From positions 62,001 through 126,000 of the forward strand of contig JAFTYU010000005.1 of the NCBI GenBank assembly GCA_017461235.1: a stretch of 64,000 nucleotides of DNA, in the 5' to 3' direction. The DNA is from Clostridia bacterium. GTDB taxonomy: Bacteria > Bacillota > Clostridia > Oscillospirales > Acutalibacteraceae. Shown here piece by piece: positions 35,525 to 42,011 of this stretch. The notes below the pieces were generated by a model. It was not told the DNA's origin, searched no databases, and saw only the letters and a program-made list of their open reading frames with translations. How positions within the stretch are numbered: position 1 is the stretch's first letter; each line of letters starts with the position of its first letter. The translations under genes were made by a program, and so were the position numbers.

Positions 35525-36286
35525 TTGAAATTCAAAGTTTTTTCATTCAACGGCACGGTGTTTTTTATGGCTGTTATGATTGCGCTGGGTTTTTCGGGTG
35601 CTATGACCGTCACCAAATTATGCGTAACCGCTGACAACACTGCAAGAAAACTACCCATATATTCAGTTGAAACCGACGAGAGAAAAATTGCAATAACGTT
35701 TGATGCCGCCTGGAGCGCCGAAGATACCGACGAATTAATCGGGATATTAGAAAAACACAATGCTAAAGCAACTGTTTTTGCCGTTGGTGACTGGGTACGC
35801 AAGAATCCCGGTGCGGTAAAAAATTTTTATGATGCAGGGCATGAAATTGGAAATCATTCGGACACCCACGCTTCTTTCAGCAAAGTAGGCAAAGAAAAAA
35901 TAGCCGAAGAAATTGAAAATTGTAATTTTGAAATTGAAAAAATAATCGGTGAAAAGCCGAAAACCATCAGAGCGCCAAGCGGTGACTACGACAACAAAAG
36001 TATTGAATTTACTGAAAACATCGGTATGAAAATGATTCAATGGGACGTTGATTCTCTTGACTGGAAGAAGCTTTCGGTTGACGAGATGTATAGTCGTGTG
36101 GTTAATAAAGTTCAAAACGGCTCGATTGTTTTATTCCATAACGGAGTTAAAAACACACCCGTGGCACTTGATAAAATCCTTACTAAACTAGAAAAAGACG
36201 GCTACGAATTCGTAACCGTCAGTGAGCTTATTTATTGGGATGATTATGAAATTGACCATAAAGGTAAGCAATTCCCCTGTAAGTAG
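35525..36286 (+). CDS. pdaB: polysaccharide deacetylase, PdaB-like
   Basis: Membrane-anchored NodB-domain deacetylase, probably the sporulation type (PdaB/YbaN) that acts on cortex peptidoglycan. It starts at a TTG (35525) after GGGGTG. An N-terminal helix (about 11-32) is followed by the metal motif ITFDAAWS (DD-type, here with Ala), the HS(D)TH motif GNHSDTHASF near 117-126, RAPSGDYD near 155 and LFHNG near 211. The gene's last 25 codons contain the 24-bp near-palindrome that recurs three times downstream and marks the accessory region. Confidence 0.85.
   Translation: MKFKVFSFNGTVFFMAVMIALGFSGAMTVTKLCVTADNTARKLPIYSVETDERKIAITFDAAWSAEDTDELIGILEKHNAKATVFAVGDWVRKNPGAVKNFYDAGHEIGNHSDTHASFSKVGKEKIAEEIENCNFEIEKIIGEKPKTIRAPSGDYDNKSIEFTENIGMKMIQWDVDSLDWKKLSVDEMYSRVVNKVQNGSIVLFHNGVKNTPVALDKILTKLEKDGYEFVTVSELIYWDDYEIDHKGKQFPCK
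36197..36275 (+). repeat. gene-end repeat copy 0 (native pdaB 3' end)
   Basis: Begins with the 24-bp near-palindrome at 36197-36220: GACGGCTAC, central GAATTC, GTAACCGTC, with one mismatched position pair. It encodes DGYEFVTV in pdaB. Copies at 39058, 39525 and 40479 follow. Confidence 0.85.
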
Positions 36287-36298
36287 TTAACCCGTACC

Positions 36299-38683
36299 TT
36301 AAACACTTGGCATAAACGGTGCAATAACATTTGGTGCACCATCATTAAATGACGTTATATCAGTAAGCGATGCTGTATCCCAATCTGAACAATCCAATGT
36401 TAATTGGGCACAATCTTTAAACATTGAGCGCATACTTTTAACCTTTGATGTATTAAAGTTTTCAGGCAAAATAATATTAGATAGTTTACCACAACCTTCA
36501 AAATTCTTGTTCATATTATCGATATCAGAAACATCAAAGCCACTAATATCAAGTGTAACCAATGAACTACAATTCAAAAATGTGGAGTTAAAAGCCAATA
36601 ACTTATTCGATCCAAATTTAACAGAATTTAAAGATGAACAACCACTAAATGCAGATGCAATATTTATACTTTTTCCTGAAAAAACAGCCATATCTATAGT
36701 TTCCATCGAGTTGCAATTATAATACATATTCAAACAATAAATGCTGGTTTTATTTTGGGAGATATCCTTCGGGAAATACACTTTTTCAAGAGAATTACAA
36801 TTATAAAAAATATTTGTATATTTATTTACATCAGTTAAATTCATAAACCGCAAATCCACTGTTTCCAAGTCTTTACATCCTGAAAACACATTCATCATAT
36901 CTGTTGGTTTCACATCTTTAAAATGTGTCAAATCAACAGATTTTAATTTATTGCAATTTTTAAACATTCCGGACATATTTGTTATGTTACCAACATTGAT
37001 ATTTTTAAAGTTTACAATTTCAACCAGATTTGTAAAATTCAAAAACATCTCTGATGAATTGCAGTTTGCAAAAATATTGTTTTCGCCACCTTTTACAAAC
37101 AATTCATTACCAACTCTATAAACAATAATTTGGTTATTGTCGGATATACTTGCATCCCACGACTCATCGTAAAAAGTTGGAGTATAGTTATTATCGAAAG
37201 TAATCTTGGTTATTGTTTTCTTATCAGCGGTGCCACAATACCATGAAACTCCGCTTTTAAGAATGCTTGAATTCTCATTAACAATCGTACCCGTTGAATC
37301 AAAATATGTATTTTCTTCTATATTTTTTAATTCTGTATCTAAGTTGTATGAAGCGATAGGCAAAAATTTACCCGAAACGAAATCTCTCCCCTTTAACACA
37401 ACATTATTCTCATACACATCTACAACATAACCTTGACTTGCATTATAATCGGCAACCAACTCGCCATTTAAAATACCTTTAGGATATGCCAATGACGGCA
37501 CATGAACGCTATGGCAACCAAAAATGTAGTCATAATTATTCATTTTATTTTCCAACTGCAATTCAAACTTTTGATGACTATGACCATGAAAATATATAAC
37601 ATTACTATAATGTGAAAGCAAACTATAAAAAACAGTTCCCTGAGTATTATCCAACATATCCCCTTCGACATCTAAATCGACAGCATCACCACTACCGTCG
37701 CCCGGAAATAAATGCATAAACAAAAAGCAACGTTTATTTCTATTTTTTTCTAAAACTTCATAAAGCCACTGTAACTCACCATCGGCAAATTCACAACCTT
37801 CGTGGACATCATACATGCCCAACATAATGTATACATCATTATCCTTCTCAAAATAATAATACAAATCTTGGCCTGTATATGGTTTCAAACCATCCATTTT
37901 TAAAGGGGCAAACGGTGCGTTTGCATCATGATTTCCTGAAATGGCATAGACTGGCTTGGATGTGTTTTCATCTACAATTTTCTTATAAAGCGAAAGGTTT
38001 GTTTCAGTACCACCTAACGACAAATCGCCGCATACAGTAGTAAATTCAATATCTTTGTCATCTTCAAAGAATTGTAATGCGTTTATAAAATCAGGCTCAG
38101 CCGTTTTAGAACCTATATGTGTATCAGAAATCGCCCCGAAAGAATACTTCAATTCCCCTAAATCCACGGGTTTCAAATCGCTTATACTATAAGTGCCTAC
38201 CTTTTCATTGCTTGAATTATAAACCCCAATAGACGTCGCTTGTATCGGAGCACAATTCACTTTATTAAAACCCTTATAACAGTTCTCATCATCCTCAACA
38301 TTTACCGAACCGATAATATCATAATCTTCTAATACACCATTATCATTTTCATATTTAAGAACATAATTATCGCAAGGAAAGTTTGTTAAAACCAAACTAT
38401 TATCATCTGATATTTTTAGTTCAGGCTCTTCACCCAAAACACCACGAACAAATAATTTGAAATCAAGTGCAGATAATGATCCATCTCTATTAATATCTAT
38501 GAAATCAAGTTCAAATTCAGGTGAATTTCCAAACATTATTTCTCGTTCGGCAATAAAACAGTCCAGAACATCCGCTACTCCATCTTCATTCAGGTCATAC
38601 AATTGTTCCGCACCGGTAGCGCTACTCAAACAGATAGAAAGCATAATAAAGCAAATAATCGATAGAGTTATTTTTTTCTTCAT
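36299..38683 (-). CDS. secreted dockerin-phosphoesterase-BspA repeat protein
   Basis: Large secreted protein of 794 residues with an unusual domain order. A signal peptide (to about 24) is followed by a type I dockerin with two calcium loops (DLNEDGVADVLD and DINRDGSLSALD). Next is a calcineurin-like phosphoesterase with ISDTHIGSK, CGDLSLGG, SGNHDAN and YFHGHSHQKF. The C-terminal part has DUF285/BspA-type repeats of the form M..MF..C..L..VDL. The dockerin predicts docking to a cohesin. The start at 38683 follows GAAGGGTGA. It is divergent from an XRE gene and seems AT-richer than the core genes. Confidence 0.85.
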   Translation of the reverse strand: MKKKITLSIICFIMLSICLSSATGAEQLYDLNEDGVADVLDCFIAEREIMFGNSPEFELDFIDINRDGSLSALDFKLFVRGVLGEEPELKISDDNSLVLTNFPCDNYVLKYENDNGVLEDYDIIGSVNVEDDENCYKGFNKVNCAPIQATSIGVYNSSNEKVGTYSISDLKPVDLGELKYSFGAISDTHIGSKTAEPDFINALQFFEDDKDIEFTTVCGDLSLGGTETNLSLYKKIVDENTSKPVYAISGNHDANAPFAPLKMDGLKPYTGQDLYYYFEKDNDVYIMLGMYDVHEGCEFADGELQWLYEVLEKNRNKRCFLFMHLFPGDGSGDAVDLDVEGDMLDNTQGTVFYSLLSHYSNVIYFHGHSHQKFELQLENKMNNYDYIFGCHSVHVPSLAYPKGILNGELVADYNASQGYVVDVYENNVVLKGRDFVSGKFLPIASYNLDTELKNIEENTYFDSTGTIVNENSSILKSGVSWYCGTADKKTITKITFDNNYTPTFYDESWDASISDNNQIIVYRVGNELFVKGGENNIFANCNSSEMFLNFTNLVEIVNFKNINVGNITNMSGMFKNCNKLKSVDLTHFKDVKPTDMMNVFSGCKDLETVDLRFMNLTDVNKYTNIFYNCNSLEKVYFPKDISQNKTSIYCLNMYYNCNSMETIDMAVFSGKSINIASAFSGCSSLNSVKFGSNKLLAFNSTFLNCSSLVTLDISGFDVSDIDNMNKNFEGCGKLSNIILPENFNTSKVKSMRSMFKDCAQLTLDCSDWDTASLTDITSFNDGAPNVIAPFMPSV

Positions 38684-38724
38684 TAAATCACCCTTCTGAT
38701 ACAAAAAATATAAGCATCAAAAGC

Positions 38725-38778
38725 ATTTTATCTGTATTACAGATAAATGTCAATATCTGTTTTACAGATATGCATAAT
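38725..38778. promoter_or_regulatory. divergent promoters with two palindromic operators
   Basis: Minus promoter: TTGACA (plus 38748-38753), 17-bp spacer, TAAAAT (38725-38730). Two 15-bp palindromes, ATCTGTATTACAGAT (38730-38744) and ATCTGTTTTACAGAT (38755-38769), lie 25 bp centre to centre. The first sits inside the minus spacer; the second sits in the spacer of a weaker plus promoter (-10 CATAAT at 38773-38778). Likely sites for the adjacent XRE protein. Confidence 0.75.
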
Positions 38779-38794
38779 AAAATTGGTGATTGAA

Positions 38795-39016
38795 ATGGTA
38801 TTTAAAAACTTAAGAGCAATCCGCGAAGATCGAGATATTCGACAAAAAGATATGGCAGCGTATCTTAATGTATCACAAAACACTTATTCACAATACGAAA
38901 CCGGAGTAATTGCACTTACCGCTGAAGTTTTAATTAAACTGTCTAACTTTTATGATGTAAGTATTGATTACCTTTTGGATCAAACCGATAATCCTGAACG
39001 ACTAAAAAGGAACTGA
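38795..39016 (+). CDS. XRE-family HTH repressor (73 aa)
   Basis: Compact Cro/CI-type helix-turn-helix protein that is almost all DNA-binding domain: NLRAIREDRDIRQKDMAAYL, then NVSQNTYSQYETG as the recognition helix and VSIDYLLD at the end. The start is the ATG at 38795, reached from the promoter at 38773. It probably represses itself and the divergent dockerin gene through the paired palindromes. A close paralogue is at 48011. Confidence 0.88.
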   Translation: MVFKNLRAIREDRDIRQKDMAAYLNVSQNTYSQYETGVIALTAEVLIKLSNFYDVSIDYLLDQTDNPERLKRN

Positions 39017-39047
39017 AAGCCAAAAACTTTCAGTTCCTTTTTGTTTT
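39011..39047 (+). terminator. intrinsic terminator of the XRE gene
   Basis: Nine-bp stem AACTGAAAG/CTTTCAGTT overlapping the stop codon, followed by CCTTTTTGTTTT. Confidence 0.85.
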
Positions 39048-39048
39048 A

Positions 39049-39150
39049 ACAAAAATTGACGGCTACGGATTCGTAACCGTCAGCGAGCTTATTTATTGGG
39101 AAAATTATGAGATCGACCATACCGGAAGGCAGATTTTTATTCATAATATG
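39049..39150 (+). repeat. gene-end repeat copy 1 (pdaB 3' end remnant)
   Basis: From 39058 it matches the pdaB end at about 64 of 74 positions, including the near-palindrome with central GGATTC (39058-39081). The pdaB reading frame stays open here as DGYGFVTVSELIYWENYEI and runs to a TAA at 39151. Most changes are synonymous, so it looks like the end of a related pdaB allele rather than drift of the local copy. There is no start codon or gene body. Confidence 0.8.
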
Positions 39151-39292
39151 TAATAAAAATCTCTTCAGATTCATTTTGTGCTGTTTTAAGTATTTCAACG
39201 CATTTCTCGTCGGTACATATTTCGTTAACATCAGTGATAGTATTAAAAAGTTTGAGATACATTTTCTTATACATTTCTGCATCATTTTTCAT
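39137..39292 (-). CDS. hypothetical protein (51 aa)
   Basis: Short ORF with a good ribosome binding site (AGGAG, 8 bases before the ATG at 39292). The protein is charged and helical, starts MKNDAEMYKKMYLKLFN and ends ESEEIFITYYE, with two Cys near the middle (ICTDEKC). No family recognised. Its 3' end overlaps gene-end copy 1. A nested inverted repeat lies upstream. It is the only likely coding sequence in the second unit of the accessory region. Confidence 0.5.
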   Translation of the reverse strand: MKNDAEMYKKMYLKLFNTITDVNEICTDEKCVEILKTAQNESEEIFITYYE

Positions 39293-39360
39293 AAGCTTCA
39301 CTCCTAAATAAAAAAGTGCGCAACCGAAGTCACGCACCAAAAACACATAACTCCAATTGT

Positions 39361-39473
39361 TGTCACACAAATTTCCACAATACCACAAGTATGCGAAAGG
39401 AGTATGTATTTTTATCAAGAGATAAAAACACACACTTGTGGTTCTTGGCGGATAATATGAAATTTGTGTGACA
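39361..39473. repeat. nested inverted repeat, 113 bp
   Basis: Outer arms TGTCACACAAATTTC (39361-39375) and its exact complement (39459-39473); middle arms CCACAAGT/ACTTGTGG (39383-39390, 39434-39441); inner TTTTTATC-aaga-GATAAAAA (39409-39428). All three are nested on one axis, so the whole folds into one long hairpin. It lies upstream of the 51-aa ORF. Could be a miniature mobile element or a structured RNA. Confidence 0.7.
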
Positions 39474-39515
39474 CGGTTATTTTATCACACAATGCTCAAA
39501 ATATCAACTAAAACA

Positions 39516-39590
39516 ACAAAAATTGACGGCTACGTATTCGTAACCGTCTGCAAGCTAATTATTTTAAGTGATTATGATATTTACCATTCG
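39516..39590 (+). repeat. gene-end repeat copy 2
   Basis: Degenerate copy; near-palindrome 39525-39548 with central GTATTC. Similarity to copy 1 continues past it (AGCTAATTATTTT, GATTATGATATTTACCAT). The pdaB frame is now broken. It precedes the toxin-antitoxin promoter. Confidence 0.75.
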
Positions 39591-39622
39591 GTATTAAATA
39601 TCAATAACAAGAATACTTCCAC

Positions 39623-39651
39623 TTGATAAATAACTTAATTTATGGTATATT
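39623..39651 (+). promoter_or_regulatory. promoter of the Fic toxin-antitoxin pair
   Basis: TTGATA (39623-39628) and TATATT (39646-39651) with a 17-bp spacer, 27 bases before the antitoxin ATG. Confidence 0.7.
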
Positions 39652-39678
39652 AATTAAAAAGTTTTCGAGGTGATTTAT

Positions 39679-39843
39679 ATGTCTATTGATAAAGCAATAA
39701 ATAATGCAATAGCTTCTGTTGAAATGGAAGGCTTTTCTGTTGATGAACAAAGTAAAGAATGGTGCAGAAAACTTTTAAATAACGAAATATCAATGGAACA
39801 ATATATCTCACTTGTTAAACAATCGGCAGGTGTTACTGTGTAA
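39679..39843 (+). CDS. VbhA-like antitoxin of a Fic system (54 aa)
   Basis: Small protein that likely blocks the Fic protein encoded next. It starts MSIDKAINNAIASVEMEG and carries the inhibitory motif (S/T)xxxE(G/N) as S13-VEM-E17-G18; in known systems this Glu blocks ATP in the Fic active site. The C-terminal half (NNEISMEQYISLVKQ) matches the antitoxin VbhA fold. GAGGTG lies 7 bases before the ATG. Its stop codon overlaps the fic start (TAATG), a coupling seen in class I Fic pairs. Confidence 0.88.
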   Translation: MSIDKAINNAIASVEMEGFSVDEQSKEWCRKLLNNEISMEQYISLVKQSAGVTV

Positions 39844-40439
39844 TGAGTTACAGTATTTCTCACCCGTCAGATGATTGTTACGAAGGTACTGCTTGTCTGT
39901 TAAATAAATTTAATATACAAAACGAAGAACAGCTCGCTAAAGTTGAAGCAAGTATAACATTAGCTAAAACTGCCGAGTTAGAAAGAAAACCCATAAGCAA
40001 CACCTATGACTTTGAACACTATAAGCAGATACACGAATATCTTTTTAAAGATTTATATGTATGGGCAGGACAAATAAGAACTGTTGATATTTCTAAAAAA
40101 GGAACCTATTTCACTTCTGTTGAAGATATTGAAGCTATTGCTGAAGCTTGTTTTAACAGATTGAAATCTTGCAATTATTTCAAAAACCTTGAATTTGATG
40201 AGTTTATTGAAAATATTGTTGATTTTTACTGTACGACCAATATGCTCCACCCTTTCAGAGAAGGAAATGGAAGAACACAAAGAGTCTTCATTGCTCAACT
40301 CATACGTTTTTGCGGTTATGATATAAACTTTTCTGAAATAGATACTGACGAACTTATGGCTGCAACAATACATTCAGCAAATGGTATTACTGATTACCTG
40401 AAATTGATATTTAAAAATCATATAAAGCCCCAAGAGTAA
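39843..40439 (+). CDS. fic: Fic/DOC family protein (likely AMP-transferase toxin)
   Basis: Fic-domain enzyme of 198 residues. The active loop is HPFREGNGRTQR near 138-149, matching HxFx(D/E)GNGRxxR, with the catalytic His and the Arg needed for catalysis. KDLYVWAGQIRTVDISKKGTYF is the flap region that positions the target. Most such proteins AMPylate gyrase, topoisomerase IV or other proteins; the target here is unknown. No N-terminal self-inhibiting helix, consistent with a separate antitoxin. Confidence 0.93.
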   Translation: MSYSISHPSDDCYEGTACLLNKFNIQNEEQLAKVEASITLAKTAELERKPISNTYDFEHYKQIHEYLFKDLYVWAGQIRTVDISKKGTYFTSVEDIEAIAEACFNRLKSCNYFKNLEFDEFIENIVDFYCTTNMLHPFREGNGRTQRVFIAQLIRFCGYDINFSEIDTDELMAATIHSANGITDYLKLIFKNHIKPQE

Positions 40440-40466
40440 CTCTACGTTTTTTGCGTAGAGTTTTTT
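40438..40466 (+). terminator. intrinsic terminator of fic
   Basis: AACTCTACG/CGTAGAGTT stem with a 7-base T-rich loop, followed by TTTT. Confidence 0.85.
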
Positions 40467-40469
40467 AAT

Positions 40470-40502
40470 ATAAAAATTGACGGCTACGGATTCGTAACCG
40501 TC
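40470..40502 (+). repeat. gene-end repeat copy 3
   Basis: Near-palindrome at 40479-40502 with central GGATTC, preceded by AAAATT as in copies 1 and 2; similarity stops soon after. It marks the right end of the accessory region, 8 bases before the stop of the RACo-like gene. Confidence 0.75.
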
Positions 40503-40509
40503 TGAAACT

Positions 40510-41919
40510 CTATTCGTATTTTTGAAATTCCATATTCTCAATAAACAGCTCTGAAAAGCGTTGGTTTAAGGACAAATCAATATACTTAGCGTTTTCAATG
40601 TATTGTTCAAGTTGACTTTGTTCAAAAGAGTATTTTATTGTACCCGAAAGGCTGCTGTTATTAAGAGATACAACTTTATCTTTCAATTCACGAGGTAAAA
40701 GTCCTGTTGCAACAGCATTTTCAACATTGATTTCTGAAGAAAAGCCGCCTGAAATATACATTTTTTCTATCTGCTCAAAAGCAACTCCGTTAAGTTCAAT
40801 AAGTGTCATTATAGCAGAATACACTGCGGATTTCGCAAGCTGATATTGGCGCACATCTTCTTGCAGCAGCCTTACGTTTTCTGCAATTTCAAAACTTCCG
40901 CAATCCATATAGCCCGTTTCATCAATTATCCCGTGTTCAACTAAAACGCAGATTACGTCAACAAGTCCTGTTCCGCACAATCCTTCTGCCTTTTTACCGG
41001 ATATAGTTTTAACGGAAATTTTATTACTCATATCAATATCAAAGGCGTAAACCGCACCATCGGTGGCACTCATACCGCAAGAGATATTCGCACCTTCAAA
41101 ACATGGTCCTGCCGCCGCAGAAGTGCAAAGAGCTTTGTTTTTCGAATAAAGAACTATCTCCGCATTTGTACCCAAGTCAACCAACAGATTATATTTATCA
41201 TCGTAAGGAAAGTCTGTAAAATTGAGTCCTGCAACTAAATCCGCACCCACAAAGGTGCTGATGCACGGCAGACTTTTGACTTGCTTTGCAAATTTTAAAC
41301 CGATATGCGTACCTTGTGTGGTTTTAGTATTTAAAAACTGCGGTGTGTACGGTGCCACACCCATCGAAGACGGGTCTTCACCAAAAAGTATGTGCAGCAT
41401 TGTAGTGTTACCCGAAACATAAAGATTTTCACAAAAAGCACCGCCTAATGACAATGCCATTAAGTTCAATTCCCGAACTAAGGCGAGCTGCGGTTTCCGT
41501 ACGGAATTCTTACTGCAATAGTCGATACGTGAAATCACATCTGCACCAAACACAGCCTGTGGATTGGGACGCGTTACGGTTTTCAGAACATCTTTTTTAT
41601 TAACGTCAACTAAAGCCATAGCCAACGTAGTTGTTCCAAGATCAAGAGCATAGCTCAAATTTCCTTTTATCTCACCTGAAAACTCAATATCCTTTTCAAA
41701 AGCTTGCTGGACATCAGGCAATTCAACAATAATATCATCATCGATTATGTAACGGCAGGATAAAACACTCGCTCCGTTGACTGTAACCTTACATTTACCG
41801 CAGGTCCCCTGTCCGCCACAAGGGTGTGCCGAATAAAAACCGTTATCTGTTAAAAAATCGGATAACAGTCTGCCTTTTTCTGATTTTAATATTTGATTTT
41901 GGATTTTAACATTAACCAT
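40510..41919 (-). CDS. ferredoxin-ASKHA protein (RACo-like, DUF4445)
   Basis: Two-part protein. The N-terminal plant-type [2Fe-2S] ferredoxin has CGGQGTCGKC and a fourth Cys in VLSCR. The rest is an ASKHA-type ATPase with DLGTTTLAMAL, VDLGTNAEIVL, and AAAGPCFEGANISCG. Proteins of this kind reductively reactivate corrinoid proteins in methyl transfer (RACo). No corrinoid protein or methyltransferase gene is in the window. The start is uncertain: ATG at 41919 gives MVNVKIQNQ; an ATG at 41928 is an alternative; neither has a strong site. Confidence 0.87.
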   Translation of the reverse strand: MVNVKIQNQILKSEKGRLLSDFLTDNGFYSAHPCGGQGTCGKCKVTVNGASVLSCRYIIDDDIIVELPDVQQAFEKDIEFSGEIKGNLSYALDLGTTTLAMALVDVNKKDVLKTVTRPNPQAVFGADVISRIDYCSKNSVRKPQLALVRELNLMALSLGGAFCENLYVSGNTTMLHILFGEDPSSMGVAPYTPQFLNTKTTQGTHIGLKFAKQVKSLPCISTFVGADLVAGLNFTDFPYDDKYNLLVDLGTNAEIVLYSKNKALCTSAAAGPCFEGANISCGMSATDGAVYAFDIDMSNKISVKTISGKKAEGLCGTGLVDVICVLVEHGIIDETGYMDCGSFEIAENVRLLQEDVRQYQLAKSAVYSAIMTLIELNGVAFEQIEKMYISGGFSSEINVENAVATGLLPRELKDKVVSLNNSSLSGTIKYSFEQSQLEQYIENAKYIDLSLNQRFSELFIENMEFQKYE

Positions 41920-42011
41920 AAAAACCATTCGCTTTTTAATTATTGGTTTTATTTTATCACAAAAATTCGTTAAATCAACCATTGTTTAACGAACAAAACA
42001 CATCCTGCACC

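Follow-up and report, generated by a model that had tools for sequence, protein, structure and literature searches.

A genus-wide cassette hotspot with a palindromic core at the 3′ end of pdaB in Acutalibacteraceae

In a Clostridia bacterium of the Acutalibacteraceae, a 64,000-nt stretch of contig JAFTYU010000005.1 (positions 62,001 to 126,000; hereafter the window, its genome G000) carries three small gene units in series behind pdaB, which in Bacillus is a sporulation gene. Comparison with related genomes shows that the cassette hotspot at the 3′ end of this gene is real and genus-wide, and that it has a well-defined core site: its occupancy varies, its units are shuffled and shared, unit boundaries fall at the core, and the arms of the core are constrained at the DNA level. 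The pdaB 3′ end is probably where a cassette array attaches that has no recombinase of its own and is moved in trans by site-specific recombination. Circular intermediates, a trans-acting enzyme and the class of that enzyme are what we infer from these observations, a tyrosine recombinase being the best guess from a 9-6-9 geometry with fixed arms and a variable centre. A first-pass annotation, made from the letters of the window, had proposed an insertion hotspot here, an interpretation that as a whole is partly supported.

The core is a 24-bp imperfect palindrome, GACGGCTAC-N6-GTAACCGTC, found four times in the window, always on the forward strand and with perfect arms in all four copies, which bears out the recurrence noticed in the first pass. 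With up to three mismatches allowed, 0.01 matches are expected by chance (dinucleotide shuffles of the window). Outside the window, the 2.15-Mb assembly yields just look-alikes with three mismatches; a core scattered over the genome would have spoken against a hotspot, and no such scattering is seen. The docking gene, its cores and its tails are as follows.

35525–36286, forward: pdaB, polysaccharide deacetylase (Pfam Polysacc_deac_1, 6.8e-33), the docking gene by its 3′ end
36197–36220, forward: core site 0, GACGGCTAC GAATTC GTAACCGTC, within pdaB (pattern scan, codon test)
36221–36286, forward: pdaB tail in use, which we read as that of unit 1
39058–39081, forward: core site 1 (pattern scan)
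39082–39153, forward: pdaB tail copy with its own in-frame stop (alignment to the pdaB end)
39525–39548, forward: core site 2, tail decayed, arms perfect (pattern scan, arm and tail mismatch counts)
40479–40502, forward: core site 3, the last of the array, pdaB tail gone (pattern scan, arm and tail mismatch counts)

Copy 1 matches the end of pdaB at 85% over 79 nt and remains in frame to its stop at 39153, as had been proposed, and copy 2, correctly described as decayed, matches the same 79-nt end at 70%. Copy 3 had been called short; its core is kept, and the pdaB tail is lacking entirely, a stop codon coming next and then the end of the RACo gene.

On codon and mismatch comparisons, the core is constrained at the DNA level, and the arm-centre-arm site behaves as one conserved unit across copies, in keeping with the form first described for it. 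Where amino acids are the same, its eight codons are 96% identical among 13 pdaB genes from 13 species, compared with 44–73% in 17 other eight-codon windows (G003 was left out for its decayed core, and the G016 assembly lacks a full pdaB). Six array copies have tails that are decayed or absent; in these, mismatches amount to 0 of 108 positions in the arms, 186 of 306 in the tails and 5 of 36 in the centres, a decayed tail being defined by at least 12 mismatches in 51 positions, and such copies may never have had one. The remaining ten array copies hold three arm mismatches in 180 positions, two of them common to the pdaB core of the same genome, G018. Array copies were located through the core itself, a possible bias through which copies with a lost core would escape; a rescan of nine array stretches, tolerating up to six arm mismatches, returned only the 22 known sites, with seven chance matches to a reversed control. 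Near-fixed arms around a variable centre are the pattern at many tyrosine recombinase sites.

Within the genus, the core is present in 14 of 22 genomes (up to three mismatches; 29 copies), and the reversed control pattern gave one match in the same 22. Six genomes have one core (G005, G006, G007, G014, G015 and G019) and eight have two to four (G000, G009, G010, G012, G016, G017, G018 and G020). Of the 29 copies, 13 are inside pdaB and 16 mark unit borders; five border copies (one in G009, two in G016 and two in G017) are on contigs without a full pdaB and were placed via their RACo or rpoD neighbours. A single core does not mean an empty site 3′ of pdaB, as G005 and G019 carry another gene there. 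No core was found in G001, G002, G011 and G021, each at least 90% complete, and in G001, G011 and G021 no close PdaB was found either. Across 398 genomes of the family the exact core occurs in six, five of them in this genus (whose members G018 and G001 gave no exact match in that scan); the sixth, one of 391 family genomes outside the genus, has it as a palindrome outside pdaB. The named public records that contain the core belong to metagenome-assembled genomes of Oscillospiraceae or Clostridia, and where a host is stated, it is a ruminant.

The units measure about 0.4–2.9 kb and their cores all share one orientation. Those of the window comprise the following.

36221–39057: unit 1, dockerin/phosphoesterase gene (reverse) and XRE-type regulator (forward), 91.3% DNA identity to the first unit of G009
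36299–38704, reverse: metallophosphoesterase with DUF285/LRR_5 repeats and a dockerin (Pfam), start probably an internal ATG
38783–39016, forward: XRE-type regulator (HTH_3, 5e-17)
39082–39524: unit 2, 51-aa gene (reverse) with a structured leader; related units in G016, G018, G017 and G009 (unit comparison)
39137–39292, reverse: 51-aa open reading frame (ORF), recognisable counterparts in G016 (TTG start), G018 and G017 (alignment)
39293–39476, reverse: structured leader before the 51-aa ORF, with a terminator-like hairpin at its end (fold z, consensus fold)
39549–40478: unit 3, VbhA-Fic pair, also in G012, G018 and G020 (Pfam, unit comparison)
39679–39843, forward: VbhA-type antitoxin (Pfam VbhA, 8.7e-6)
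39843–40439, forward: Fic protein (Pfam Fic, 3.1e-14; PADLOC candidate PDC-S04, 2.6e-71)

In the multi-copy genomes these and other units stand in the following orders.

G000: dockerin and XRE, 51-aa unit, VbhA-Fic
G009: dockerin and XRE, Fic2, partial 51-aa unit, contig break, end of such a unit, RACo
G012: Fic2, lipoprotein-like gene (by eye) and XRE, VbhA-Fic
G018: VbhA-Fic, then 51-aa unit
G020: VbhA-Fic
G016: DUF6291 unit, 51-aa unit, dockerin
G010: zinc-ribbon unit (under Pfam's cut-off)
G017: broken

The relatives thus offer what the first-pass annotation had asked of a hotspot: single-core sites exist, cargo varies between copies, and the same cargo appears at different positions. At one join, between the VbhA-Fic unit and the relative of unit 2 in G018, the core has been lost. 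The last core of G012 (L059, 5370 onward, oriented) is followed not by rpoD, but by what we take to be spoIIIA-type genes, through rearrangement or assembly error.

Homology between units spans core to core. The Fic2 unit shared by G009 and G012 is 89% identical over 936 nt and about 50% identical outside, and for unit 1 identity climbs at the core, from some 70% to more than 90%, the tail lying in between at about 80–85%. Set against the neighbouring FAD gene, the dockerin unit of G000 and G009 is 91.3% versus 82.4% identical, and Fic2 in G009 and G012 88.8% versus 80.4%; for VbhA-Fic pairs among G012, G018 and G020 the values are 85.3 versus 79.5%, 84.8 versus 83.9% and 83.7 versus 80.4%. 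Unit identity surpasses that of the FAD gene by more than three points in four of eight pairs, and that of the 5′ part of pdaB in all eight; because the comparison with the FAD gene differs by pair, recent transfer appears supported for some unit pairs only. In G010, the one multi-copy genome having close single-core relatives, the last tail and the DNA that follows match those relatives (G006, G014 and G015) at 76–81% over 854–983 nt, whereas the sequence after the first tail does not match them, which is what insertion at the core predicts and which fits the earlier idea that incoming tails restore the gene end.

If units are moved by site-specific recombination in trans, a cassette would be a unit of one or two genes, in most cases carrying a pdaB tail on its left, with a single 24-bp core as its boundary. 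The trans-acting recombinase would exchange strands within the core, and insertion at the pdaB core would join the cassette's core half and tail to pdaB, displacing the old tail downstream, so that the gene would keep a working C-terminus. Repeated insertion at core copies would give rise to serial units, and pairs of cores would permit units to exit or to be reordered. If cassettes restore the gene end on entry, this would explain how units can land in a useful gene without its loss.

Several points weigh against such movement. Neither tyrosine recombinase (PF00589) nor large serine recombinase (PF07508) matches occur in any array, as the first-pass annotation had noted for the window, and no candidate recombinase is shared by every array genome; the assemblies are all drafts, and three of the eight multi-copy arrays (G009, G016 and G017) are broken by contig ends, gaps that could hide an enzyme. 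Identity of the window's VbhA-Fic pair to the three others is slightly below that of the FAD gene (77.2 versus 80.4%, 79.8 versus 82.4% and 76.8 versus 79.4%), and in one further pair (84.8 versus 83.9%) the two are about equal. The core is also constrained in single-copy genomes, which a selfish site alone does not account for. Lastly, near-identical tracts round the core in G012 (identical over about 110 nt), and species-specific tail variants shared within G018 and within G020, have the appearance of gene conversion, an outcome not expected of plain strand exchange, and suggest that homologous exchange also occurs.

These tracts point to conversion within genomes and, with no recombinase in cis, are what one would look for if no dedicated enzyme existed and the arrays arose, once DNA had been taken up or transferred, through homologous recombination and gene conversion among pdaB tails, in which the core would simply be the best conserved stretch. 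We regard this as unlikely, since six copies have little or no pdaB homology to the right of a core that is nonetheless perfect, different short-type units have just an A-rich tract in common to its left, and homologous recombination leaves the joining of unrelated cargo at the same base unexplained. The DNA-level constraint in single-core genomes might instead reflect a host role for the core, as an operator or RNA signal, with the array built by rare duplications; this account is very unlikely, as the core is copied at unit boundaries and other genera do without it (the one exact match in 391 genomes being outside pdaB). Site-specific movement of cassettes in trans remains the probable explanation.

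The three units had been outlined correctly in the first pass for the dockerin gene, the XRE regulator and the VbhA-Fic pair, all recognised by Pfam; the 51-aa ORF then called on the forward strand (39316–39471) is probably spurious, its reverse-strand neighbour being the one with counterparts. Folding around unit 2 is strong (z = -8.0, computed on 39137–39548), and a consensus fold of five leaders gives mixed covariation (46 pairs, ten changed on both sides, covariation term +0.96); the G009 fragment in the unit-2 alignment does not align across the 51-aa ORF. An Rfam scan of 36180–40520 returned three weak matches, none close to the gathering score. Beside the array, the RACo protein (40510–41925) is 57–62% identical to its counterparts in G009, G016, G017 and G018, and the adjoining RpoD is 96–98% identical.

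A second boundary, absent from the first-pass annotation, lies 5′ of the core.

36047–36052, forward: GTTGAT in pdaB, the point from which the "long" downstream copies of relatives are homologous to the gene, and at which large serine recombinase elements insert in other genera (relatives)

The long copy is absent from the window. Four array copies, in G010, G012, G016 and G020, share a starting point some 150 nt farther 5′ in pdaB (GTTGA, which is decayed in G020), and G018 has a decayed fifth long copy. A profile of the PdaB C-terminus run over 200 family genomes found partial copies in other genera among the matches listed; 60 family loci were drawn from at least 172 matching genomes of the 200, and since eight were picked for a partial copy, eight in 60 is not a frequency. 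In G231, G138 and G154, pdaB is split at this point, its halves being about 5, 13 and 34 kb apart (the G138 and G154 intervals read in part), and a large serine recombinase gene adjoins one half (L119, 3338–8989; L118, 7233–9448, oriented; L120 with L223 and L232). The G231 protein has the Pfam domains Resolvase and Recombinase, and those of G138 and G154 were recognised by similarity to it (37% and 42% identity). The G231 element also contains a tyrosine recombinase match. In five further genomes (G129, G214, G165, G105 and G085; L113–L117), a small unit is flanked by a complete pdaB on one side and, on the other, by a C-terminal copy with 88–99.6% identity to that gene, and the sequence left of the join is approximately ATTACTTTTGTATCTAATG across these genera as well as in G010 and G016. 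These alignments identify the second boundary as a scar left by large serine recombinase elements, which in three other genera split pdaB. In G018 and G020 the VbhA-Fic unit stops at this scar and in G000 and G012 at a bare core, so that one unit connects both types of boundary. A short, decayed pdaB-tail-like stretch also lies downstream of pdaB in G220 (L144, 1382–1445, oriented; 75% over 64 nt).

Such elements raise the question of whether the units are decayed remains, akin to cis-mobilisable elements (CIMEs), of integrase-bearing elements that inserted at pdaB and are now immobile. The insertions in three other genera and the attR-like scar in some arrays speak for this; the scar, however, lies about 150 nt 5′ of the core and not at it, the same small units reappear in different species and at different positions, and neither the 22 genus genomes nor pattern scans of IMG/VR showed a recombinase-bearing element at the core, three arrays being incomplete. 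Immobile remains are accordingly an unlikely explanation. In those viral contigs the strict core pattern and the serine-recombinase attP pattern each had no match. Seven looser core matches were judged to be chance, since none reads as a pdaB end.

For cassettes moved in trans, the enzyme would be encoded elsewhere. Outside the arrays, too, no PF00589 match lies beside one, the nearest on the same contig being tens of kb off. In whole-genome scans, 21 of the 22 genus genomes gave tyrosine recombinase matches and 16 gave large serine recombinase matches. PF07508 has no match in G000, where PF00589 matches twice, once in a short gene resembling phage integrases; in G009 and in G016 the sole PF00589 match is the Xer-like protein. 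Clustering of tyrosine recombinases took in part of 30 loci. The tyrosine recombinase named in the first pass was not borne out by these searches, the arrays holding no PF00589 match and the Xer-like protein adjoining an unrelated, dif-like site.

That site is an 11-6-11 palindrome, (C/A)TTATACAAAA-N6-TTTTGTATAA(G/T) or a close variant, which 16 of the 22 genus genomes carry at the locus round a tyrosine recombinase gene, with arms fully complementary in 13 (loci examined with the palindrome or variants: L085–L095, L097, L099, L100, L104, L105, L216–L221 and L242). It was not found in the G014 and G019 loci, and G000, G008, G011 and G013 had no matching tyrosine recombinase locus in this count. 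In G007 it stands beside the Xer-like gene (L242, 8887–8914; C3:200287) at a GC-skew flip near 200 kb, 189 kb from pdaB. It is a putative genus dif, whose pairing with an Xer-like gene resembles the gene-linked XerS/difSL arrangement, unlike canonical Firmicutes dif; the canonical pattern gave 14 matches in 9 of the 22 genomes, against 22 for a reversed control. GC skew does not flip at pdaB in either G000 (window) or G007. The core was also considered as dif itself, and was ruled out by the skew in these two genomes and by the separate dif-like site.

This bears on the proposal that the units are Xer modules, with the core as dif or a dif-like site and host Xer as mover, in the manner of Acinetobacter dif modules. 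Unit size, toxin-antitoxin-type cargo and the 6-bp centre do recall such modules, and G009 and G016 have no tyrosine recombinase match other than the Xer-like one. Xer is nevertheless an unlikely mover of the pdaB units, judging by a dif-like site that differs from the core and by the lack of a skew flip at pdaB; moreover, the core was not found in the four genus genomes named above, three of which showed no close PdaB either. The proposal is disfavoured, and we think it highly improbable.

Tiny cassette arrays that bear toxin-antitoxin-like and other accessory genes, but no mobility gene, pose the puzzle of what moves them. The site described here, with its arms, its variable centre and both occupied and single-copy forms across 14 genomes, allows a concrete enzyme search, at a gene that is also a target of serine recombinase elements in other genera. 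Tentatively, the arrays may add a third kind to the recombinase-less systems represented by integron cassettes and dif modules, one in which a genus-wide docking site is kept at the DNA level in a protein gene and cassettes are exchanged between species by a dedicated recombinase that is possibly plasmid- or phage-borne and missed by draft genomes.

Integron gene cassettes likewise form arrays of small gene units with one palindromic site each. Unlike them, the pdaB array has no integrase beside it and follows pdaB rather than attI, and its core sites do not appear to resemble attC. Acinetobacter dif modules (pdif/Xer) are small units, often toxin-antitoxin pairs, with short sites that have a 6-bp spacer, and are extensively shuffled (PMC13141974). 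The pdaB arrays share with these the small units, the short sites with a 6-bp centre and the lack of a recombinase of their own, but are chromosomal, are anchored in a protein gene with a restored end, and keep one site orientation; nor do their sites match the host dif/Xer site, the genus dif being itself a prediction. CIMEs and gene-end accretion involve serial units without a recombinase, att-like repeats and a rebuilt gene end (PMC5704250). Tandem, att-flanked units without a recombinase at a gene end are found at pdaB too; unlike CIMEs, these are only about 0.4–2.9 kb long, are common to several species and have no known parent element at the core. Gene-intervening elements of sporulation genes (skin, SPbeta, gin) have been described for gerE, the C. 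difficile sigK factor and SPbeta (PMC5595907, PMC5025042, PMC4191935), and the serine recombinase elements that split pdaB at a fixed point in other genera are like them, a likeness that applies to the second boundary and not to the core. A term search of the open PubMed Central library found no paper joining pdaB with an integration site and an integrase, and the papers found there on sporulation intervening elements do not contain "polysaccharide deacetylase". The pdaB arrays appear, by their sequence organisation, to work like dif modules or CIME accretion, the closest kinds found.

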